Position numbers and translations under genes: made by a program. The notes under the pieces were generated by a model. It saw only the letters and a list, made by a program, of their open reading frames with translations. It made no database searches and was not told the DNA's origin. This document shows, in pieces, positions 27,192-44,928 of a stretch of DNA of 64,000 nucleotides. Positions within the stretch are counted from its first letter, which is position 1. Every line of letters starts with the position of its first letter. This DNA is from Mycobacterium stomatepiae (GTDB lineage Bacteria > Actinomycetota > Actinomycetes > Mycobacteriales > Mycobacteriaceae), in contig NZ_AP022587.1 of assembly GCF_010731715.1 (NCBI RefSeq), forward strand, positions 1,488,001-1,552,000. Reading direction: 5' to 3'.

Positions 27192-27266
27192 GCGCGATTA
27201 GCTCAGCGGGAGAGCGCTTCCCTGACACGGAAGAGGTCACTGGTTCAATCCCAGTATCGCGCACCA
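27192..27266 (+). tRNA. tRNA-Val(GAC), integration target
   Basis: Acceptor GCGCGAT pairs ATCGCGC, anticodon loop CTGACAC gives GAC, and CCA is encoded. The 3' part from 27243 onward is duplicated at 44893, so this gene is the attachment site of the 17.7-kb element and its 3' end may have been supplied by the element while keeping the tRNA functional. Confidence 0.95.
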
Positions 27267-27278
27267 GAGTTCTTGCAG
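27243..27278 (+). repeat. attL: left 36-bp direct repeat
   Basis: It starts inside the T-arm of tRNA-Val(GAC), runs through the encoded CCA and continues 12 bp beyond. It matches 44893-44928 except at 27267 (g here, c at 44917). The single mismatch, right after CCA, may mark which side of crossover each copy came from. Confidence 0.92.
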
Positions 27279-27358: not shown

Positions 27359-30300
27359 ATGAGTCCACGGCAGCCCGACTCGCAAGTTGCCCGATTTCAG
27401 CAGCTTCAGCCGCAAACAACGCCGGATACACCACAATCAGTAGCCGTGGCCGCATCGCCATCGACTCCTGTGCGAAAACCTGTTGGTCCATACTGGTACG
27501 AGAACCTGGGCGAAGACGAGTTCCAGAAGCTTTGCCATGTCCTGATCACCAGCAAGTTTGACAACGTCACCTGCTATCCAGTCGGACAGAAGGATGGCGG
27601 TCGAGACATCAAGCAGCGGATCGCATCCGGCGAGATTATCTATCAGGTCAAGTGGTCAAAAGATTCGGTGAAGAACCCTCTGACGTGGCTGGAGCAGGCC
27701 ATAGCTGGGGAGTCCAAGCAAATCAAGGCCCGAGTAAAGGCCGGGGCGACACACTACGTTCTGATGACCTCCGTTGCTGGAACGGCCGCGGCCGCTACCG
27801 GTCCGAAAAATTACGGCGCCGGCACAATCAACAAGCTTGAAACGGCGTTGGCAGGCTACGCAAGCGAATACGGCCTCGCCTCCATGGAGTGTTGGTGGCG
27901 TGATGAAATCGATGCGCGAGTTTCTGTGCTGCCCCGATCGGTACTGTGGCGGTTCCAACGAATGCTTGCTGGCCCAGAAGCAATGCGATTCCTGCTCCAG
28001 GCAGATGATTCAGAAGCTTCAGAGGCGAAGCTCGCGCTGCTCGTCCGCAAGGCGGTCCAAGCGCAGTGGTGGCAAGACATCAAGGTGAAGTTCAAGCAAG
28101 CCGAACTCGACAACGATGACTTAGAGGACCTGTTCGTCGATGTCAAAACCTATCCGAACCCGAAGCGGCTTAAGGACCACGCCGCTGTCATCCAGACTGG
28201 GGCGACGCCGATTGGTGCGGTGCACTACTTGGTGCATTCGCAGACGCCGTTCACGCTGGTGCGCGGCGAGCCGGGACAGGGAAAGTCGACTCTCGCACAA
28301 TACGTTTCACAGGTCTATCGGTCAGAGTTTGTCCCTGACGAGCCGGGAACCATACTGAAGCGCCCTGCTCTCAAGGCGTCCCAATCGCGAGTGCCCTTAA
28401 GGATAGATCTGCGCGACTATGGAGCGTGGCTGGATGGCACCGATCCGTTCGTCGAGTCGAACCTGACTACCAAGTCACCAGCTAAGCCGCGCAAGTTCGG
28501 CGCCGTTGAAAGATTCCTTGCTGTCTTCCTAGCTGCCCTCACAGAATCCGACAGCATTGAGATGGCCACGGTGAATGACTTGCTGGACCGATTCCCCGTA
28601 ATGCTCGTTTTCGATGGCCTGGACGAGGTAGCGCAGCGCGAAACGCGTCAGCGAGTGGTTACCGAGATTGAAAAATTCATTGGTCGATGGAGGGGCGGCA
28701 GTACGGTACCTCCGAAAATTGTTGTCACAACAAGGCCGAACGTCTCGAAGCTGCCCGAGCCAAGCTCTCAATGGTTCGAGCCAATCACGCTGTTAAAGCT
28801 CGATCACCAGCTACGCCTGGTCTACTTGCGCAAATGGTGCGCTGCGAGGGGCATCGTCAGCCGCGCCCGCCGGGAACTGATTCATAGCTTCGACACACGT
28901 ACCGCTGAGCCACACATCGCACAACTGGCCGAGAATCCAATGCAGTTGACGATTCTGCTCTACCTCCTGCATCTGCAAGGCCATTCGGTCCCTGATAAGA
29001 GGACACCGCTCTATGACGATTACATGAAAACATTCCTGAACCGTGAGGCCGAAAAGAGCGCTTCGGTGCGCGAGAACCGCGACAATCTTGAAGAGGTGAC
29101 CGCTTATCTCGGCTGGCATCTACAGGCTCTGGCCGAGCAGCACGGGAGCATTGGTCGGCTCAGCACTATCGATTTGAAGACCGAGATTTTCCGGTACCTG
29201 ACAGCTGCACAGAAGGATACCGGTTTGGTCGATGCGTTGTTCACAGACGTAACCGACAGGGTATGGGCATTGGCCAGTAAGGCACAGGGCACGTTCGAGT
29301 TTGACGTTCAACCGGTCCGCGAGTTCTTCGCCGCCAAATACTTGTCTCAGTTCGCGTCCGCTGACAAATCCGAGGTTTTGAAAGCGTTAATCCGACGGCC
29401 TTTCTGGTTCAACACCAGTCGGTTTTTCGCAGGGTTTGCTCATGCGAACGAGGTCGGCGGACTGGTCGACGCCCTCACCGAAGAGCTGACAGAGGCCAGG
29501 CACCCACTATCTGAGCGTGTTGCAACGTGGACGCTGCTAGCAGATGGCGTCTTCTCTTCAAAGCAGACAGCACAACGCCGTGCAGTTAATTTGCTCAGTG
29601 ATGACCTGGGCGTCCGTCTGCTTCGGTATATCAACGCTACCTCCGAACCGCTGCCTAACCTGCCGGCTGACCGCGGATGGGCGATGCTGTGTGAACAGTT
29701 GCTGGACGCGGCCTTGGCACAGCCCGTGAGCGCGCTGTCCTATGAGCGACTAGACCTGGCGGCCACACTCGCTACAGATGTGGAGCCGATCAGTCAGTGG
29801 TGGCTCCAACATGCCCGTCCCGAGTTTGGTACGGCAGACGAGCTGCCATGGTTGCGTCTTGGTGCGTCCGTTACAGCCGGACGCCTCCTCGAGTCCGGAG
29901 ACTTGGACACACTGGCGCTCGCAGATTCCGCTGCGGCGCCCTCAGCGATCGCTTGCGGTGTCGCGCCGCCACTAGGGTCGTCAATGGAGCAGGCGATGTT
30001 GGCCGCGATCCTATCTGGGCACTGTTCGGACGTCATTTCGCCGCGGACCGGCTTCATTCCGGACTTCGTTAACGCGCTAGCACCTCGCGAGTTCATTCAC
30101 CTAGCCAAGGCAAACGATCGGAGCATCTTCGAGATGCGCTCCGCCCACTGTGACGAGCTGATGCCAACGCTTAAGCGCCAGGATGCTTTTCGGCGCCTCA
30201 GAAAGCGAGAACCAGTGTTCGACAAGGTTCAGCGTGCAATGAACACAGTTCGCCGCTCACCCAACACCGTCGCGCCCTGGAGCGGCGCAGCGGAGCTTTT

Positions 30301-31093
30301 GCGCCAACTTTATGGGCCGTCCTGGTTATGCACCGAGATCGCGATTATCGGCGCTGCGATCGACCCGAATACGCGACGCGATGTCGGGCCGATGAATCCC
30401 AATCGTTCGACGTTTGGGCCCGAGATCGATTACGGCCGTCTCGTGAACGACACGCGACGTAACCGAAATAACGTGGGGTGGTGGCTCGACCAGCGCAGTG
30501 CGCTCGCTGCGTCGGACCGCGCGGTATGGGTATATGCACTTGCCGCAGTCGCGAGCCCCACTGTCGTACGCGCCTGCCTGGGTGAGTTAGCTGAAGATAT
30601 CGATGCGCTCAATTCCGAGCGTGTTACTGCCCTCATGGCGAGCTCAAGCCGGCTGGGATTGTCACAAATTAGCCGCCGACTGCCATCAGACATAGCCGCC
30701 TCGGCAATGGCGCTATCGCTCTCCGTATGCCTACTGGTCGCCCATCACACGGATCTGCTGAACGCCGAGCCGAACCTTCTGACTAGCTTCACGCCTGAGC
30801 TAGCTACCCAAGCCGCCCAATTTGGCCCTGCAGGCTGGCCAGCGTTGTACATCGCAGGAATGGCCCTGTATAGCACGGAGTCGCAGGACTGGCTTGAGGT
30901 CCTTGAAGCCTTCGGAGCCGCTGCCGTAGGCGGTGTCGCATATGGCCCGCTGCCCGGAGGGCTATGCGAGCAAATCCTCAATAATTCGGCCCGTTACCCG
31001 TTGCAGTGGGTCCAGATCGCTGAAGCTTCTCGATCGCGACGGAATACAGAATTGCCATTACTTTCTGTTACCGGCTCGTGGTTCGAAGATTAA
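27359..31093 (+). CDS. Mrr-like nuclease-NACHT NTPase fusion, candidate antiphage protein
   Basis: A 1244-aa protein. Residues ~45-170 form an Mrr/PD-(D/E)XK-like domain: LGEDEFQKLCHVL, GGRDI (D83) and IIYQVKW (Q96, K98) are the expected catalytic positions. A NACHT NTPase follows: Walker A GEPGQGKST at 303-311 and Walker B LVFDGLDE at 416-423, then a TTRPN sensor-like segment near 460. The remaining ~650 residues are alpha-helical, compatible with a sensor, without an obvious repeat. Nuclease-NACHT proteins (bNACHT/Avs-like) sense phage products and destroy DNA to abort infection. First gene of the element, intact, ATG at 27359. Function is inferred from architecture. Confidence 0.82.
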   Translation: MSPRQPDSQVARFQQLQPQTTPDTPQSVAVAASPSTPVRKPVGPYWYENLGEDEFQKLCHVLITSKFDNVTCYPVGQKDGGRDIKQRIASGEIIYQVKWSKDSVKNPLTWLEQAIAGESKQIKARVKAGATHYVLMTSVAGTAAAATGPKNYGAGTINKLETALAGYASEYGLASMECWWRDEIDARVSVLPRSVLWRFQRMLAGPEAMRFLLQADDSEASEAKLALLVRKAVQAQWWQDIKVKFKQAELDNDDLEDLFVDVKTYPNPKRLKDHAAVIQTGATPIGAVHYLVHSQTPFTLVRGEPGQGKSTLAQYVSQVYRSEFVPDEPGTILKRPALKASQSRVPLRIDLRDYGAWLDGTDPFVESNLTTKSPAKPRKFGAVERFLAVFLAALTESDSIEMATVNDLLDRFPVMLVFDGLDEVAQRETRQRVVTEIEKFIGRWRGGSTVPPKIVVTTRPNVSKLPEPSSQWFEPITLLKLDHQLRLVYLRKWCAARGIVSRARRELIHSFDTRTAEPHIAQLAENPMQLTILLYLLHLQGHSVPDKRTPLYDDYMKTFLNREAEKSASVRENRDNLEEVTAYLGWHLQALAEQHGSIGRLSTIDLKTEIFRYLTAAQKDTGLVDALFTDVTDRVWALASKAQGTFEFDVQPVREFFAAKYLSQFASADKSEVLKALIRRPFWFNTSRFFAGFAHANEVGGLVDALTEELTEARHPLSERVATWTLLADGVFSSKQTAQRRAVNLLSDDLGVRLLRYINATSEPLPNLPADRGWAMLCEQLLDAALAQPVSALSYERLDLAATLATDVEPISQWWLQHARPEFGTADELPWLRLGASVTAGRLLESGDLDTLALADSAAAPSAIACGVAPPLGSSMEQAMLAAILSGHCSDVISPRTGFIPDFVNALAPREFIHLAKANDRSIFEMRSAHCDELMPTLKRQDAFRRLRKREPVFDKVQRAMNTVRRSPNTVAPWSGAAELLRQLYGPSWLCTEIAIIGAAIDPNTRRDVGPMNPNRSTFGPEIDYGRLVNDTRRNRNNVGWWLDQRSALAASDRAVWVYALAAVASPTVVRACLGELAEDIDALNSERVTALMASSSRLGLSQISRRLPSDIAASAMALSLSVCLLVAHHTDLLNAEPNLLTSFTPELATQAAQFGPAGWPALYIAGMALYSTESQDWLEVLEAFGAAAVGGVAYGPLPGGLCEQILNNSARYPLQWVQIAEASRSRRNTELPLLSVTGSWFED

Positions 31094-35841: not shown

Positions 35842-35877
35842 CTATATATCCAACTGCAGCTATATATCCAACTGCAG
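35842..35877 (+). repeat. Tandem 18-bp duplication at resolvase 3' end
   Basis: Two perfect adjacent copies of an 18-bp unit (CTATATATCCAACTGCAG). The right copy encodes the last five codons and stop of the resolvase gene; the left copy lies beyond the stop. Confidence 0.9.
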
Positions 35878-36450
35878 CGCGCGGTACACGGTTGCCCTGC
35901 TAACTCCCAACGTGGACGCGATTGTGCTAGCCGATTCACCGCTGGCGTGCATCCGCTGGGCTAAAGCAGCTTTGGAGGCATCGAGTGCCTTGGGTCGACC
36001 AATCGCCTGACCACGCGCCCGACGCGCCTCCCGCGCCGCCTCCCTACGCTCGCGACCTAGCTCAAGTTCAAGCTCAGCCAGGCTGGCGAGCACACCGGCA
36101 ACCATCCGTCCCGTCGCGTTCGACGTGTCAATCCCCTCACGCAGCGAGCGGAGCACGATGTCACGCCGACCCAGGTCACGGATCGTCGTCATCACCTCGG
36201 CCGCGTTACGTCCAAGCCGGTCAATACCAACCACAACGATTGCGTCCCCAGGCCGGGCATAGTCGAGCAGTGCGCCTAGGCCCGGCCGCTGCTCGCGCGT
36301 TGACGTTCCCGACAGCTTGTCGCTGTAGACGCGCTTGGGATCAACCCCCGCCGCGGTAAGTGCATCAAGTTGTTGGTCTAGGGACTGGTGGCCGGTCGAG
36401 ACGCGGGCGTAGCCGATCTGAACACCCGTGGGGGCGGTGGCGGTGGTCAT
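35860..36450 (-). CDS. Serine recombinase, resolvase/invertase type
   Basis: A 196-aa small serine recombinase. IGYARVSTGHQSLDQQ contains the nucleophilic Ser; YSDKLSGT, RPGLGALLDYARPGDAIVVV and DRLGRN are conserved active-site and dimer segments; the C-terminus is a Hin-type HTH (SASTIASTLGVSRATVYRAL). It would resolve element dimers or cointegrates. Two dyads with a shared GTCTCA/TGAGAC core lie just upstream. No Tn3 transposase is visible, so it is either a transposon remnant or a maintenance resolvase. Confidence 0.92.
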   Translation of the reverse strand: MTTATAPTGVQIGYARVSTGHQSLDQQLDALTAAGVDPKRVYSDKLSGTSTREQRPGLGALLDYARPGDAIVVVGIDRLGRNAAEVMTTIRDLGRRDIVLRSLREGIDTSNATGRMVAGVLASLAELELELGRERREAAREARRARGQAIGRPKALDASKAALAQRMHASGESASTIASTLGVSRATVYRALQLDI

Positions 36451-36460
36451 GCCTCAAGTA

Positions 36461-36592
36461 TGTCTCAAAAGTCTCAGAACTACAAGTATTGAGACGATGG
36501 TTTTGAGCCAACTTCTGCGACAGCACGACCTGGGACTTCCTACGCCACAATGTGACCTGTCCGAGGTGTCTCAGTTCTAAAGAATTGAGACA
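36461..36592. promoter_or_regulatory. Dyads resembling a resolvase res site
   Basis: GTCTCA-N13-TGAGAC at 36471-36495 and GTCTCA-N12-TGAGAC at 36568-36591, with extra half-sites TGTCTCA (36461) and TTTTGAG (about 36500). Spaced ~97 bp apart directly upstream of the resolvase start, they match the layout of multi-subsite res regions. They may also control transcription of both neighbours. Confidence 0.65.
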
Positions 36593-36622: not shown

Positions 36623-39600
36623 CTACGTCGCCTGCCAAACCCAGCCGGGAAGCTGCCGAAGTCGCCGTTCCCGGTCAGCAGCGAGCGTGCCGTTGCGGTG
36701 AGCGGCGCGTTGGATGCCCACCCATGAACCTAGCCTCAAATCCTTCACGCTGTAGGCACCTGGTACGCGCGTGTGGCCATGTTCGTGCGCATACTTCTCA
36801 ACTAGCTGGAACGCTCTCTCCCAACTGTCTGCGTGGGGATTCCACGTCCACCCTGGAACGTCTTCAAGGCGGAGTTGCCGTTTCACGTCAAGGCTGCCTC
36901 TGGCGTAGTCACGTCGTTGGCGGGCGAACCAGGTGCCGAGCGGGTAACCCATGAACGGGATGCGTTGAGGAACAAGGCAATGCCCCTCGTTTCTGACGAA
37001 GTCAATAAGTTTTTCCATGCCCTCCTCCCAGCTCGCTGCCCGATGGTCCCAAACCCAACCTGGAAGGCTTTCAAGCCTGCGGACACGCTCGGCGCTGAGG
37101 TTTCCCTTCCTGTGTGCACCTCGCTGGATACCGACCCACGCACCGAGTCTGAAGTCCTCAACCGTGTAAGAGTCGGGCACTCGGGTGTTGCCGGTAGCCT
37201 CAGCGTACTGCTCAAGCAGCCGGAACGCTCTCTCCCAACTGTCTATGTGGGGTTTCCACGTCCACCCCGGAACATCTTCAAGGCGGCGCTTGCGCTCTGG
37301 GGCAATGGTTCCGTCGACGAACGCAGCGCGTTGAGTCATAACCCACCCGCCGAGCCGGTAACTCCCGACCTTGTACGCGACGGGTACTAGCGCGTGCCCG
37401 TGTTCAGCGACGAACTTCAGCAACTCCGAGAAGCCCCGCTCCCATTGGTCAGTCTTAGGGTTCCACCGCCAGCCCTTGACTGCCTCCAGGCGTCGCACGC
37501 GGTCGGTGCTGAGATCGCCTCTGGCGTATGCGCGCCGCTGGCGCTCTACCCAGTCCCCGAGCTTTTAGCCCTCGAAAACACGGCCGCCCGGAACGTCTGG
37601 ATTTCCCTCAGCTTTGGCGTACCGCTGGAGCAGCGCAAAGGCTCCCTCCCACTGCTCTCCTTTGACATCCCACATCCATCCGGGCAGCGCCTCCAGCCGC
37701 CGCTTGCGGTCTTCGGAAAGTTCTCCAGCCGCATTCTTACTTCTTTGAACACTCACCCATCCGCCCAGGGCGAACCCATCCAGCTTGCAGGACTGCGGTA
37801 CAAACGAGGTGCCCTCGCGTTCAACATATTTCAACAGTTTCGCAAAGCTGTCCTCCCAGCGGGCGTCAAAGGTGTCCCACACCCAGCCTGGAAGAGCGTC
37901 GAGACGGCGGTATCGGTCGGGGTCCAGCCGCCCGGCAGCGGCGGCGCTGCGTTGGACAGCCGCCCAACTACCGAGAGCGACGCCCTTAAACACATACGCG
38001 CTCGGCACGTTCACGTTCCCGTGCTCTGAGGCATATTCCATCAGGAGGGAGAACTTCTCATCCCAGGCGTCGTTCTTAGTGTGCCAGGACCAGCCGGGCA
38101 GTGCTTCAAGGCGCTTCACGCGGGCGGGATCGAGATCGTCTCTATTTCGGAGCTGCCGCTGAGAGTTTGCCCAAGCCCCTAGCGCGAATCCGGATTCGTC
38201 GATGTACTTGACCGGCATCCGCGCGGTTCCGGTTCGCTCGACAAACTCGACGAGGTGCGCGAACCCCTCCTCCCATTGCTCGTCCTTGACATCCCACATC
38301 CACCCCGGAAGCTGCGAAAGGCGCTCTTGGCGTTCTCGTTCCAGCTTCCCGGTCGTGTAGGCGCGCCTCTGTGTCGTCACCCAGATGCCAAGTTTGAATC
38401 CCTCATAGACGCACTGGTACTGCACTCGGGCGTCGCCGAACTCATCGACGTAGCGGCGTAGTGCGGCATACCCGTCTTCCCATAATTGGAGCCGTGAGTT
38501 CCAACTCCACCCCTTGAGTTGTTCCAGCCGTTCACGCCGGTCATCGGTCAACGTGCCTGCGGCATAGGCGTTTCGTTGGACGTTGATCCACTGACCGAGA
38601 CGCAGGCCATCCGGACTTCGGTAGCTGAAGGGCACCCGCGCGCTTCCACGTTCGGCGACGTAGGCGAGGAGGTGGTTGAACCCTTCCTCCCAACGCGCCG
38701 CGATGTCGTCCCAGGCCCAACCGAACAGACTCTCCAGCCGCGCTATGCGATCGGTGGTCAGCTCACCCTTAGTGTGCGCGACACGTTGTCTGCTAACCCA
38801 GCGGCCGAGCGGGAATCCTTCATAAGTTCCACCGCTTGGAACTCGTGCGTTCCCGTAGACGCCGACGTAGTCCGCCAGATGGGCGAATCCCTCCTCCCAT
38901 TGCTCCATGAAGGGATCCCAACTCCAACCGGCGATAGCTTCCAGTCGTCGTCGTCTGTCGCCGTCAAGGGATCCCTTGCCGAACTTCTGACGCTGCGTCG
39001 AAACCCACCAGCCCAAATTGAAATCATCAACCCTGTACGCGCGTGGTACTCGGGCATTCCCATGGACCCGGACGTATTTCACGAGGAGTGCAAACCCCGT
39101 CGCCCACTGATAGTCATAGGGATCCCACGTCCAGCCGGCGAGAGATTCCAGTCGCCGCTGTCGATCGCTTTCAAGTGTTCCCTTGGCGAACTTCTGCCGC
39201 TGGGCTTGGACCCACGCGCCAAGTTGATCGTTCGACCGCGGCGCCCGAGCATGTCCATTGGCTGCTACGAAGTCCCGAAGGCTTCTGAATGTCTGTTCCC
39301 ACTGTTCGTCGTGGGGATCCCACGCCCAGCCCGGCAGCTGCTCCAGACGCTGCTGACGTTCCTCGGAGAGAACTCCTCGGCGTCTGAACGCGCGCTGGTT
39401 GGTGACCCAGTTATCAAGTTTGTAGCTGTCGGACGAGTATCCCCGCGGTACGCGTGCATGGCCGTGCTCTTTGGTGAACTGCTCCAACAGCCCGTACCAG
39501 AACTCCCAGGGGGCGCTGGTTTCTTCGACCAGGCGGGCGTCAAATGCGTTGGAGAAGTCGCGCCCTATCGCGTTGGGGAGATCGACGTGAATCTTGTCCG

Positions 39601-41494
39601 GCAGCCGCGGACTTCCACCCTTGCGCCCGAGTTCGCGGCGTAGCTCATCAAGCTGGCGGCCCAGCTCCTCGTCGTGTGCCCGGCGCGCCCGCACCACGTC
39701 CCACACCGGCTTGAACACGGAACTGTTCAGAGCTATTTCGGGGTCGGCGTAGGTATCGACGAAGACCGGGATGACAATGGTGCCGACCTTCTTCTCGTCG
39801 GACTTGCGGATGGCACGGCCCACCGCCTGCACGATGTCCACCTCGGAACGGCGGGGGTCGATGAAGGCCACGCCGTCCAGCGTTGGCACGTCCACGCCTT
39901 CCGCCAAACAGCGGGCGTTCGCGAGTAGGCCCCGGTCGTCGTCGTCGAGGCGTCCGAGGTGCTGGAGCAAGACATACCGGTCACCGGCGGGCATCTCACC
40001 CGAGGCGTAGCGGGACCAGAGTTCACCCTTCGGGCGCTGCCGGGATGGCATCCAAGCCAGCACGTCCGGCATGGAGGCAGCGAACTCCCGCGCCCGCTTG
40101 ACTCGTGAGTGGAACGATATAACTCGGTGTAGATCGTACTTCCGTATGGCCTTCATCAGCCCGATCTGTCCCGCCAGGGACGCGGCGTCGGTGACCTTTA
40201 CGCCGTCACGGGTGACGAGCACTCCCTTCTTGGCCCACTCCAGATAGGTGGCATCATCCACACTGACGATGGCAACTTGGTAGTCCGTCAGAAGATCACG
40301 GTTGATGGCTTCTCCGAACCCGAGGCGGTGAAACACCTCGCCGAATCTGCCTTCGTCGTCCATTGAGGCGTACTCGAACTCCGCCTCCTCGGCGGCTTTC
40401 AGCACGCGACCGGTGAAGTAGCGCGGGGTCGCCGTCATGAACAGCCGCCGCTTCGCCTTGATCTCCATCGGGTCGAGGACCGTGGCGAAGTCGGACGAAA
40501 CCGGTCCTGCACAGCGATGTGCCTCGTCGGCGACGACCAGGTCGAAGCTCGGAACCCTTCCCAACGTGAACGCTTTGGCGATCTGTGGCGAGGACTGGTA
40601 GGTGGCGAACACCACCTGCGGACCGGACCGCCGCCGCAGGAAAGCCGCTATCTCGGAAGGGTCGGTCTTGACAGGTACACAGAGGTCGCTGGTGTGCTCC
40701 AGCGCCACATCATTATCCCGAGCAACTGTATCGTCGGAACACACTGGCAGCGAGACGAACTCGGCGGCGCAGTTGGCTCGCCACACGTTAAGCGTCTGCT
40801 TCAACAGCGACAGCGACGGAACCAGAACCAGGGTCCGCTCGGCGGCCAGCTTCTCGCGAATGAACAGCGCCGTCAACGTTTTGCCGGTTCCACAGGCCAT
40901 GATCAACTGCCCGCGATCCGCAGACCCGAACCCCTTGACGACCTTCTTGATCGCCTCGCGCTGGTAGTCGTGCGGGCGGGCTGGTTTGCGCGGGCGCGGC
41001 GCACGAAGCGCCGTCGGCGACGCTGGCCAGTCTACGTCGGCGGCCTGGAGGTCGTTGAGCCGGAAAAAGCTGACACGCTTCTCCTGATCCTGGATCGTGC
41101 GCTTGCCGATGCGGTCGATGAGATTGGTGGTGGCGATCAACATGCGGAAGGTGAACACTTCGCGCCCCGACTCAGCGAGGAACGTATTCACATCTCGCTT
41201 GGTGACCCTGTAGGCGGGGTCGTAAGCCTTGGCCTGAATAGCCCACAAGTTTCCGGTGCGGTCTTCAGCAACCAAGTCAATACCAGCATCCCCGCCCCAT
41301 CGGCCCGTCCACTCGTTCCACAGCCAGACTCGGCGAAGTTCGTGTTTGTAGACCGGATCGTTGGTTAGGAACCACTGGCAGATGCGCTCGAACTGCTTGC
41401 CTCGCACCCTCGGGTCGGGGTCGAGGCGGGCGAACAGGTCGCTGAATGTCGCCACGGCGGGGATGCTAGTCGAGGCATACGACGGCAAAGACAT
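36623..41494 (-). pseudogene. Giant restriction-helicase with 14 HA repeats, interrupted by in-frame TAA
   Basis: One frame of 1623 codons containing a single TAA at 37565-37567. Residues ~30-110 are a PD-(D/E)XK-like domain (GGDAGIDLVAED, WAIQAKAYD). An SF2 helicase follows (HDYQREAI, ACGTGKT, DEAH, TATPR, QAVGRAIR). From about residue 660 fourteen helicase-associated repeats of ~69 aa run to the end. The stop falls in repeat 10 between VFEG and KLGDWVERQRRAY, where sister repeats have Tyr or Phe, so TAC to TAA is likely. A 1309-aa protein with 9.5 repeats could still be made. Predicted to translocate on and cut foreign DNA; no methylase partner is visible. Confidence 0.88.
36626..39508 (-). 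repeat. Array of 14 helicase-associated (HA) repeats
   Basis: Each unit follows W-E-x-x-F...G-x-x-x-V-P...L-G-x-W-V-x-x-Q-R...G-x-L...R-x-x-R-L-E-x-L-P-G-W-x-W, 65-70 residues. Units are divergent in sequence except where recent copying occurred: 36808-36872 and 37222-37286 are 65 bp with about 5 differences, exactly 414 bp (two units) apart. Confidence 0.88.
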
Positions 41495-41722: not shown

Positions 41723-42772
41723 TCACAAGGCGCACGCCTCTTCTAATGCCTGCTTTTTGATTCGCGGATCGATTCCCTTGACCAGACCGCTGTGCCCTAT
41801 TTCCCTGCCTCTGGCAACTAGTCCTTCATCATCCCACCGAGATACCGCACGCTGGGCGCGACGGTTTGATGACCCCAAGGTGTTACGAGCTTCCCTTACG
41901 GTTGGTCTGGTGACGCGATGGGCGCGCAGCATCGCAAGATCCTCGGCGAGCTGTCTGACGTCATCCGCCTTCTGCTTGCGGGTTGTCGTGACCAGGCCAC
42001 CGCGAAAGTTATAGCCTAGCTTGTTATCATCTTTGGCGAGCAGTTCAAAGGTGCCGATTACTGGCTTGATTTGGCCCGTGGGATAGTGCTTGCGAATCCC
42101 GCCATGCCTGTCTTTGTGTAGCTCCAATTTCGCCGTGCCGCCTTCTCCTGGCCGGAACTGCTTTTCGGCAGTAACCCGGACAGCTAGGCCACCTACCGCG
42201 CGGGTTTTAGCCATCGTGCCGGTTGGTCCGTGGGCTCTCGAATCAGCGTTCTTGGCAAGATGGTCAACCACTAGTACAGCTGCGCCTTCACGTGTTAACG
42301 GCTTGATGACTTCGGTATGCACAACAGTGAAGTCGTCAGCACTGTTTGAGTTGTACTTGAACAGTGGGAGAACTTCACCGAGTGAGTCAATCGTGACAAC
42401 ATCCGGTTTGAATACCAGCTGATCACCAACGACCTGTTTGAGACTTAGCGAGTCATGGGGTTCGGCAAGTCGGAAACGACTGGTGTCTGTCAGGATATCG
42501 AGGTCGACACCAAGATTGATTAGGTTGGTAACTATGCTTTCTGCACCGTTGTGGTCTAGATCAATGACGGAAGCTCTTCCCCCTTCCGCGAGCATCGAGG
42601 CGACAGCGGCTAGACATAGCCAAGTTTTCCCGGATTCTGTATCCCCGAAGATGAGGTTGAACTCACCGGAATAGAAGAGTGAAAAATCATCGGAGAATTG
42701 GAGCACATCCGGTTCCGGGGCGCTGAGACCACCAGCCAGGAGCGCAGCCACGTCTACATAAAGATCGTGCAT
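41723..42772 (-). CDS. RepA-like AAA/RecA-fold ATPase
   Basis: A 349-aa protein with a RecA-type core: NLIFGDTESGKTWLCLAA is Walker A, VVTIDSLGE a Walker B strand, VLVVDHLAKN the following motif. The C-terminal domain (HRVTRPTVREARNTLGSSNRRAQRAVSRWDDEGLV) looks like a winged helix. Close relatives are the RepA/AAA_25 hexameric helicase-like ATPases of plasmids and actinobacterial integrative elements, so it may support autonomous replication after excision. Confidence 0.78.
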   Translation of the reverse strand: MHDLYVDVAALLAGGLSAPEPDVLQFSDDFSLFYSGEFNLIFGDTESGKTWLCLAAVASMLAEGGRASVIDLDHNGAESIVTNLINLGVDLDILTDTSRFRLAEPHDSLSLKQVVGDQLVFKPDVVTIDSLGEVLPLFKYNSNSADDFTVVHTEVIKPLTREGAAVLVVDHLAKNADSRAHGPTGTMAKTRAVGGLAVRVTAEKQFRPGEGGTAKLELHKDRHGGIRKHYPTGQIKPVIGTFELLAKDDNKLGYNFRGGLVTTTRKQKADDVRQLAEDLAMLRAHRVTRPTVREARNTLGSSNRRAQRAVSRWDDEGLVARGREIGHSGLVKGIDPRIKKQALEEACAL

Positions 42773-43564: not shown

Positions 43565-44725
43565 CTATTCTTTCGCCGCCAAATCCGGTCTCTTAGCAAG
43601 CTCAGAGAGCGCCGCAGCTATGGCCTTGTCCCTGCCCTCGGCCTGGTGCTGGTATCTCATCGCAGCCTGTGGGGTGGAGTGACCTAACCGTGCCATCAGC
43701 TCGGCCAGGGTTGCTCCCGTTTGTGCGGCCATCACGGCTCCGCTGTGACGTAAGTCGTGAAACCTCAGGTCGGGCCGTTTTGCCTTAGCGCGGGCTCTAT
43801 AAAAGTGCCGATACAAAGTTGATGGCTGTAGGTGGTGCTCCCCCGACTTGGGTGGGAACAGGAGCGAATCCGGCTCTTTGCCAACGTGTTCCGTCAAGTG
43901 ACGTTTGACCGCCGGCAGTATGTGAGGCGGGATTGCAACGTCGCGTTTCCCGGCGTCGGACTTGGGGTCGCCAACCGACCACCCCTCCTCCACGCGAACG
44001 GCAGCCCTGCGAACGTTAATTACCGCGTCCTCAAGATCGATGTCGTTCCGCCGCAACTCAACCAGCTCCCCGAAGCGCAACGCGCACCAGGACGCCAACA
44101 ACACCATCAAACTTAGGTTCTCGGGCATCTCTGCCGTGATGATGTCTAACTGTTCCAGGGTGGCCGGCTTGGGCTTGACCTTCCGCTCTGTGGTGCCAGC
44201 GCCACGAATCAGGCACGGATTCACATCTATGATCCGATCCCGTGTGCGGGCAGTTTCCAGAATGGTCCGCAACAGGCTGTACGTGTGCGCCCGGATTGTG
44301 GGCCTGTCCTTCAGCGTGCGGGCATACCACCTATCCACCGACTCCATGCTGATCTCTCGGAGCGCCTTCGCCTTGAAGGTTGGATAGACGTGATGCTTCA
44401 ACAGCGCCTCGTAATGCTCGCGGGTGCGCGGCTTAATCGGTCGGCCCCGAACGGTGCGAGTCTCTAACCACTTCTTCGCGTAGTCACCGAACTTGATTTC
44501 AGCCTTCCGCTTGGCTTTCTTCTGCTCGATGGTCGCGGGTGGACTCCACAGTTCACGATCAATCTCGCGTCGGCGGTCGGCTAACCAGGCTTCAGCGTCC
44601 TCGCGCGCATCGAAAGTCTCGGGCGCCTTGTGCAACTTGTCGTCCGGGCCTACGTAGCTGGCTTGGTATCTGCCAGACGGCTGACACTGCCTGATACGTC
44701 CGAAACCGCGTCTTCTCCGGGCCAT
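43565..44725 (-). CDS. int: Tyrosine-family integrase
   Basis: A 386-aa phage-type integrase. An N-terminal arm-binding domain is followed by a SAM-like core-binding domain (FGDYAKKWLETRTVRGRPIK) and the catalytic domain. Catalytic residues: Arg in CALRFGELVELRR, Lys in PKSDAGKRDV, HDLRH (His, Arg), LGHST (His) and Tyr in AAMRYQH. It starts 168 bp from attR with arm-type sites between. It would integrate the element into the tRNA-Val 3' end. Confidence 0.95.
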   Translation of the reverse strand: MARRRRGFGRIRQCQPSGRYQASYVGPDDKLHKAPETFDAREDAEAWLADRRREIDRELWSPPATIEQKKAKRKAEIKFGDYAKKWLETRTVRGRPIKPRTREHYEALLKHHVYPTFKAKALREISMESVDRWYARTLKDRPTIRAHTYSLLRTILETARTRDRIIDVNPCLIRGAGTTERKVKPKPATLEQLDIITAEMPENLSLMVLLASWCALRFGELVELRRNDIDLEDAVINVRRAAVRVEEGWSVGDPKSDAGKRDVAIPPHILPAVKRHLTEHVGKEPDSLLFPPKSGEHHLQPSTLYRHFYRARAKAKRPDLRFHDLRHSGAVMAAQTGATLAELMARLGHSTPQAAMRYQHQAEGRDKAIAAALSELAKRPDLAAKE

Positions 44726-44892: not shown

Positions 44893-44928
44893 GTTCAATC
44901 CCAGTATCGCGCACCACAGTTCTTGCAG
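44893..44928 (+). repeat. attR: right 36-bp direct repeat
   Basis: Copy of the tRNA-Val(GAC) 3' end, including the T-arm half and CCA, with no tRNA body before it. It marks the right junction of the element with the chromosome. Confidence 0.92.

Follow-up and report, generated by a model that had tools for sequence, protein, structure and literature searches.

A candidate exchangeable repeat array on a type ISP-like nuclease-helicase of Mycobacterium stomatepiae

Introduction

Type ISP restriction enzymes consist of a motor followed by a coupler, a methyltransferase and a target recognition domain (TRD), as laid out in PMC4666363, PMC7049714 and PMC4872093. For LlaGI and LlaBIII, PMC4872093 and PMC4666363 describe ATP-driven translocation and cleavage when two enzymes converge. 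Here we describe a gene that joins a motor resembling theirs to a long array of helicase-associated (HA) repeats. It lies on the minus strand at 36623-41494 of the window, by which we mean the whole 64,000-nt stretch analysed (Mycobacterium stomatepiae, assembly GCF_010731715.1, contig NZ_AP022587.1, positions 1,488,001-1,552,000); all coordinates below are window positions.

What is new is that the histories of motor and array are separate. With moderate confidence, we propose that target recognition in what would be a methylase-free, type ISP-like nuclease falls to the array, as an exchangeable module, and that a single TAA cuts it in this genome, likely shortening or killing the protein. 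Our literature searches, which covered few subscription papers and, of preprints, those with PMC copies, and which were accessible in part, turned up no description of an HA array on a type ISP-like motor. In the databases, HA-type proteins are named helicases without a restriction function, and ISP-type genes are named as such.

Results

Translation of 36623-41494 yielded a single internal stop, the TAA at 37565-37567, while the remainder of the 1623 sense codons was open. This agrees with the first-pass annotation, which had described a nuclease-like domain, a superfamily 2 (SF2) helicase and a long HA array on one chain. The stop was left unmended and the pieces on its two sides, A and B, were searched separately, the Pfam scan of piece B beginning at its GTG (37498). 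The gene is composed as follows.

37565-41494, minus strand: piece A, the main open frame (sense part 37568-41494, 1309 amino acids, and the TAA), with the Mrr nuclease, the SF2 motor, HA repeats 1-9 in full and the first half of repeat 10
41021-41362, minus strand: Mrr_cat_2 nuclease domain, residues 45-158 (Pfam, E 2e-32)
39770-40975, minus strand: SF2 helicase-like motor, residues 174-575, with GTGKT at 202, DEAH at 323 and QAVGRAIR at 556 (ResIII/DEAD and Helicase_C in Pfam)
37670-39514, minus strand: HA repeats 1-9, residues 661-1275
37565-37567, minus strand: in-frame TAA within repeat 10
36623-37564, minus strand: piece B, with the second half of repeat 10, HA repeats 11-14 and the natural stop (sense part 36626-37564)

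The stop falls after column 32 of 67 in repeat 10, with VFEG ahead of it and KLGDWVERQRRAY behind. The source genome was assembled as one contig (6.21 Mb, completeness 100), and the Pfam HA family (PF03457) matched it 14 times above the 28.4-bit cut-off, every time in the array gene and once across the TAA; this whole-genome scan revealed no silent HA cassettes elsewhere. A structure model of residues 1-930 had a mean predicted local distance difference test score (pLDDT) of 70 and was good in the nuclease region and poor at about residues 330-570.

Residues 16-620 align with residues 14-657 of LlaBIII (4xqk; E 7.9e-98), and residues 169-619 match LlaGI (5ffj; E 5.7e-73). The residues D73 and Q87-x-K89 align with D78 and Q92-x-K94 of LlaBIII, the first of which we take to be the catalytic aspartate. 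A D78A mutant was employed in the LlaGI structure work (PMC4872093). In PADLOC, the same region matches a type IIG restriction-methyltransferase model, of which it covers the N-terminal 40% (E 1.7e-148). Since the nuclease-helicase part is homologous to that of LlaBIII, the comparison supports a restriction-type motor, akin to the nuclease-helicase half of type ISP enzymes. Both are single chains with an N-terminal Mrr-family nuclease and an SF2 helicase-like ATPase, but the window protein has the HA array where LlaBIII and LlaGI have the coupler, methyltransferase and TRD. Neither piece matched the coupler PF22240 (E <= 0.01), a methyltransferase family of Pfam or the TRD Type_ISP_C (PF18135); in an ISP-type locus used as positive control (L055), the methyltransferase was detected, and the coupler and TRD were matched at 1e-52 and 2e-111. 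Because all three are absent, the protein falls outside type ISP by that family's definition, although it probably has its way of working in common with these enzymes.

We compared motor loci across a genome collection, considering the best 80 of 581 confirmed loci. HA repeats alone were present in 25 of these and an NPPY-type methyltransferase motif alone in 45, while 10 had neither (several of them cut by contig ends) and none had both; the motif was thus absent from all 25 HA-type loci. Scored against the window's motor, the HA loci reached at least 466 bits and the loci with the methyltransferase motif 348-411 bits. HA-type loci come from Mycobacteriales and from records with names such as Sulfurimicrobium, Geobacter, Gallionella, Rubrivivax, Desulfogranum marinum, Chlamydiae and Crenothrix. 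Within the window's genus, 49 of 297 genomes contained a motor match at E <= 1e-80. Thirty places in 28 genomes seemed by score and extent to be of the HA type, and HA repeats were found at 29 of them, the thirtieth being cut by a contig end. Two phage records matched the motor at E <= 1e-20, both with 33% identity. Like its best relatives, which have the same Mrr-SF2-HA order, the window protein is one of the proteins with the HA domain, whose annotations read DEAD/DEAH box helicase or helicase associated domain protein. Other HA helicases match in the motor and the HA part only, and lack a match to Mrr (e.g. G038, residues 156-790).

Two further arrangements were observed among the motor loci. 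One locus (L057:9854-16991) contains two overlapping tandem HA-type motor genes with different arrays, of 6 and 9 HA repeats. Three loci with planctomycete names (L038:1827-5252, L042:7004-10390 and L048:2499-4754) have an Mrr-SF2 motor scoring 594-642 bits and neither HA repeats nor a methyltransferase in Pfam, and their C-termini are possibly a third kind of C-terminal module.

Divergence of motors and arrays was compared for 116 of 121 proteins, namely those in which the first repeat starts at residue 600-700, giving 6670 pairs. As background for the arrays we used an identity of 0.56, the 95th percentile of array identity in pairs with motors less than 65% alike. Identities of the two motor halves were correlated at 0.76, as opposed to 0.19 for motor and array. 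Once motor identity reached 85%, arrays were at background in 114 of 172 pairs, and from 88% in 27 of 49; in the pair P0062/P0070, motors that are 96% alike carry arrays that are 47% alike. To guard against chimeric metagenome contigs, the same comparison was run on 26 loci of assembled genomes (at least one of which, L145, is apparently the same contig as the metagenome-assembled locus L027). Here, motor identity was 80% or more in 27 pairs, and in 24 of these the array identity was at most 0.56, as in L152/L153 (motor 93%, array 47%) and L140/L141 (motor 92%, array 50%). Chimeric contigs are an unlikely cause of the mismatch, which recurs between loci of assembled genomes.

The converse was also seen. 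The window and a locus from another species, L147, have motors that are 68-73% alike and arrays that are 88-95% alike, and L143 and L154 have motors of 66% and arrays of 77% identity. Between the window and L147, synonymous divergence (dS), which was 1.39 and 1.09 in the motor, fell to 0.22 over residues 541-655 and 0.09 over repeats 1-9 before rising to 0.49-0.82 over repeats 11-13. Just before helicase motif VI, at codon 541, identity goes up from about 0.70 to roughly 0.93, and near codon 1350 it drops. We read this as exchange of an array block whose second edge would lie within the array and whose first edge is placed here:

39785-39874, minus strand: codons 541-570, identity step to L147 and putative 5' edge of the exchanged block

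Local duplication was also considered as the main source of array variety and set aside; it is modest, and only 14 of 121 arrays fit by having an internal repeat pair at least 80% alike. The motors of P0001 and P0015 are 92% alike. Repeats 6-13 in one of their arrays correspond to repeats 2-9 in the second, and the first repeats differ. Blocks inside the arrays thus seem to be exchanged or deleted as well in this pair.

Variability within the repeat was measured on 1148 repeats in 67 alignment columns. The six most variable columns were 45, 37, 41, 44, 26 and 40 (3.46-3.64 bits), with W38, Q42 and R43 standing nearly invariant among the hypervariable ones. In a structure model of five repeats from the window (mean pLDDT 88, predicted template modelling score 0.55), onto which the column numbers were carried by hand, columns 35-47 form one helix, so that this middle helix holds five of the six (37, 40, 41, 44 and 45). 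These five positions are rich in N, Q, S, T, K and R, and Asp or Glu makes up 2-6% of them as compared to 30-56% at the variable columns 7, 14, 17, 18, 52 and 61. In orthologous repeats, the five columns changed less than the variety within arrays suggests, with ratios of 0.37-0.47 against values of up to 0.74 elsewhere, and all five were among the seven lowest ratios of 19 variable columns. Columns 37 and 41 covary, and 905 different five-letter combinations were counted in the 1148 repeats. A profile of the window repeats matched the HA structure 2kta, a putative helicase fragment, over 64 positions (E 2e-6); this is one HA unit from another protein, and we know of no complex of it with DNA.

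These data bear on an alternative in which the HA array would be a sequence-blind DNA clamp or processivity aid and the differences between arrays would stem from fast evolution of tandem repeats. It would suit such a role that repeat number ranges from 4 to 15, as if exact length were unimportant, that much of each repeat varies, and that HA units need not read bases in order to bind DNA. However, fast evolution in place would not yield a near-identical array (dS 0.09) on a diverged motor (dS 1.1-1.4), and the arrays of L140/L141 and L152/L153 have no repeat in common despite motors that are 92-93% alike. The modest extent of local duplication and the retention of the variable helix positions between orthologues, relative to the variety between repeats, also argue against a clamp, which we consider unlikely.

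Repeat number was determined in the best 120 of 7739 protein matches at E <= 0.001, the relatives with named sources being mostly Mycolicibacterium, Mycobacterium, Nocardia and Rhodococcus. Counts ranged from 4 to 15, and 14 repeats were found in 12 of these relatives and 15 in 3, so that fourteen repeats are not exceptional and the first-pass view of a protein much larger than known HA helicases is not supported. Natural uninterrupted genes with shorter arrays include a Sulfurimicrobium gene with 7 repeats (L035) and a Rhodococcus protein with 10 (P0047), and a homologue of 1337 amino acids and 10 repeats is listed for Mycolicibacterium smegmatis (P0076). The first-pass annotation had named natural ends of relatives at repeat 9-10 as what would refute it; in part agreement with this, relatives with nine or ten repeats do exist (32 and 16 of 120), yet the arrays most similar to that of the window have 14 units (P0002-P0006) or 13 (P0001). 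Behind its 13 repeats, P0001, which is encoded by L147, has the out-of-frame remnant of one further repeat with the same kind of end. The last repeat was complete in 113 of the 120 relatives; five end clearly within a repeat (P0007, P0012, P0089, P0090 and P0106), and P0052 and P0083 stop a few residues before the end of the HA model.

Given this preference for closing on a complete repeat, a natural early end at repeat 10 is unlikely. In comparison with L147, the ratio of nonsynonymous to synonymous divergence (dN/dS) was 0.25 ahead of the stop (repeats 1-9) and 0.16-0.18 in repeats 11-13, which follow it; the value of 0.95 for the first 35 codons after the stop comes from very few changes. 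Since selection is not relaxed in repeats 11-13, we regard the TAA as a recent lesion or an error and not as the natural end. The product in this genome would lack half of repeat 10 and repeats 11-14; loss of function is probable, though not assured, as nine complete repeats are a size seen in relatives of working length. The family has frame breaks not infrequently: among the 28 other loci uncut by a contig end in the gene, they occur in L143, L147, L157 and L161, and in L145 out-of-frame repeats follow the gene. The frame of L166 lacks the first half of the motor. The breaks in related loci could possibly also be assembly errors.

Were the TAA itself an error of sequencing or assembly, the gene would be intact in the cell, as could be expected from the open frame over the remainder of the 1623 sense codons and the unrelaxed selection behind the stop. 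We regard such an error as distinctly unlikely, as the genome is a single contig with a completeness of 100 and other copies in the family are broken too.

The gene appears to be cargo of a 17.65-kb integrative element at a tRNA-Val gene, with the following features.

27243-27278, plus strand: 36-nt attachment-like direct repeat over the 3' end of tRNA-Val(gac)
44893-44928, plus strand: second copy of the 36-nt repeat, 97% identical, at the other end of the element
43565-44725, minus strand: tyrosine integrase of the element (Pfam)

The attachment sequence recurs 10-16 kb apart in two further genomes, of other species, among those searched (G023:C5:50771-61487 and G021:C9:727-16872), and because of this repetition other islands probably use the tRNA-Val(gac) site as well. 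Beside the tRNA-side end, the gene at 27359-31093 encodes a NACHT-like protein of 1244 amino acids (Pfam E 7e-6, 26.3 bits and so slightly under the 26.7-bit cut-off), the region near the N-terminus of which weakly matches an Avs-type nuclease-TIR model in PADLOC (E 2e-4); it is likely a second defence gene. At 41723-42772, with the motor gene on one side and the integrase on the other, lies a gene for an AAA_25/RecA-like ATPase. Its PADLOC match to mads_8 is weak (E 4e-4), and it more likely belongs to the element as a replication-type gene.

Pfam detected no methylase among the larger genes of the element, in line with the first-pass annotation. Around related genes, no methyltransferase was seen among 25 of the 102 Pfam families matched (143 of 163 frames, 20 of 22 loci), and scanning 30 loci for a methyltransferase motif in frames of 220 amino acids or more found none; neither result proves absence. 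Single matches among the neighbours were to the PADLOC models RT_UG32, SduA, SoFic, a NucC-type effector and PD-T4-6, each in 1 of 143 frames, and some of them may simply reflect ordinary kinases or transporters.

Within the element, the array adjoins the NACHT-like gene. This would be compatible with an array that senses a protein or another foreign component, such as a phage protein, and has the motor-nuclease as its effector; variable, exchanged recognition surfaces occur in sensors of phage proteins too. The array stands, however, where the homologous type ISP enzymes have their DNA-recognition unit, and its hypervariable helix positions have few acidic residues and many N, Q, S, T, K and R residues. 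To a sensor of this kind we give little credence.

The 3' side of the array gene contains a resolvase gene and two inverted repeats.

35860-36450, minus strand: serine resolvase, 196 amino acids, co-directional, 172 nt behind the array gene
36568-36591, no strand: resolvase-site-like inverted repeat GTCTCA-N12-TGAGAC, retained in L147 (L147:11213-11236)
36471-36495, no strand: inverted repeat GTCTCA-N13-TGAGAC, within which the homology to L147 ends

The GTCTCA-N12/13-TGAGAC pattern occurs at four places in the genome, of which two are here, one is beside the only other resolvase copy and one is elsewhere. L147 is without such a resolvase, yet has kept the first inverted repeat. When 45 other HA loci were scanned, a resolvase copy 87-91% alike was found about 200 nt behind the gene in L140 and L149, and one 87% alike 2 kb behind it in L141; a more distant homologue lies 2-3 kb behind the gene in the opposite direction in L137 and L161. 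The resolvase is on the 3' side in all five loci that carry it and is absent within the examined stretch from the other 40. From this position, we would guess that it takes part in array exchange. No second resolvase-type site was found in the window on the far side of the gene, and among 25 of 28 pairs of inverted repeats that might frame an invertible array there were only short or imperfect ones. A perfect 18-nt tandem duplication (35842-35877) also lies at the 3' end of the resolvase gene.

Discussion

We take the array to be the target-recognition module because it occupies the place of the recognition unit, has reader-like variability and is what changes hands between motors. The first-pass idea of an extended DNA-recognition module gains indirect support from the separate histories and from the pattern of variability. 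Binding to DNA, sequence specificity, a role in defence, any part of the neighbouring resolvase and the effect of the stop are what we infer from the sequence. Under the proposed mechanism, the array would bind target DNA by the variable middle helix of its repeats, after which the SF2 motor would translocate on the DNA, by homology with LlaBIII, and the Mrr nuclease would nick or cut foreign DNA as in that enzyme, likely acting on phages or plasmids. Since no methylase was found, self DNA would need to be spared without methylation; the simplest answer would be a long composite target that is absent from the chromosome, and a further trigger is another. A new array would then retarget the same motor. 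In classical restriction systems, retargeting is brought about by exchange of the S subunit or TRD.

Several observations weigh against recognition by an exchangeable array. The coupler that links recognition to the motor is absent, which leaves the coupling of motor and array unexplained. Among protein pairs with motors at least 90% alike, only 5 of 17 have arrays at background, and 3 of the 27 pairs with like motors from assembled genomes keep like arrays (L158/L159, L148/L150 and L153/L154). Low levels of Asp and Glu are also found at the variable columns 46, 11, 47, 34, 4 and 26, and the 1955 orthologous repeat pairs compared are not independent of each other. In a thinned set, 476 of 488 five-letter combinations were distinct, with 486.6 expected from independent columns. 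The entropy moment was matched by 196 of 5000 shuffles in helix 2, as compared to 43 in helix 1 and 69 in helix 3; because one-sided variability is not peculiar to helix 2, the argument for a reader rests on the level of variability and on composition. A structure search with the array model gave no significant match and no DNA-binding fold.

Transcription activator-like effector (TALE) repeats and the exchange of type I S subunits or TRDs are cases in which a modular recognition part is swapped against a constant effector. The likeness of the HA arrays to these systems would be one of working only, in the exchanged recognition part and in the few hypervariable positions per repeat. The HA unit has about 69 residues, repeats are about 45-50% alike, there is no significant structural match and any code would be hypothetical. 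A more specific version, which we put forward tentatively as a doubtful extension, is that HA arrays are methylation-free DNA address readers, each repeat reading a few bases by the variable face of the middle helix and 4-15 repeats spelling a target too long to occur in the host chromosome, so that a widespread nuclease family would restrict chosen invaders, and that arrays pass between motors as cassettes, through homologous crossover near helicase motif VI at one edge and, in some lineages, through the sites of a dedicated serine resolvase at the other.

That the gene is instead a decaying pseudogene of a mobile element, with array differences due to decay and misassembly, is very improbable despite the TAA, the frame breaks in L143, L147, L157 and L161 and the out-of-frame repeats of L145, since most relatives are open over their full length, dN/dS is 0.16-0.25 in nearly all parts compared (and 0.95, from very few changes, in the 35 codons behind the stop) and the mismatch of motors and arrays persists between assembled genomes.

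If the array is indeed an exchangeable recognition module, a common family now annotated as helicases would be a restriction class in which a variable repeat array replaces the methylase and TRD. The natural pairs, with like motors and different arrays or like arrays and different motors, make the function of the HA repeats directly testable, and how a methylase-free nuclease spares its own genome would likewise become a testable question.

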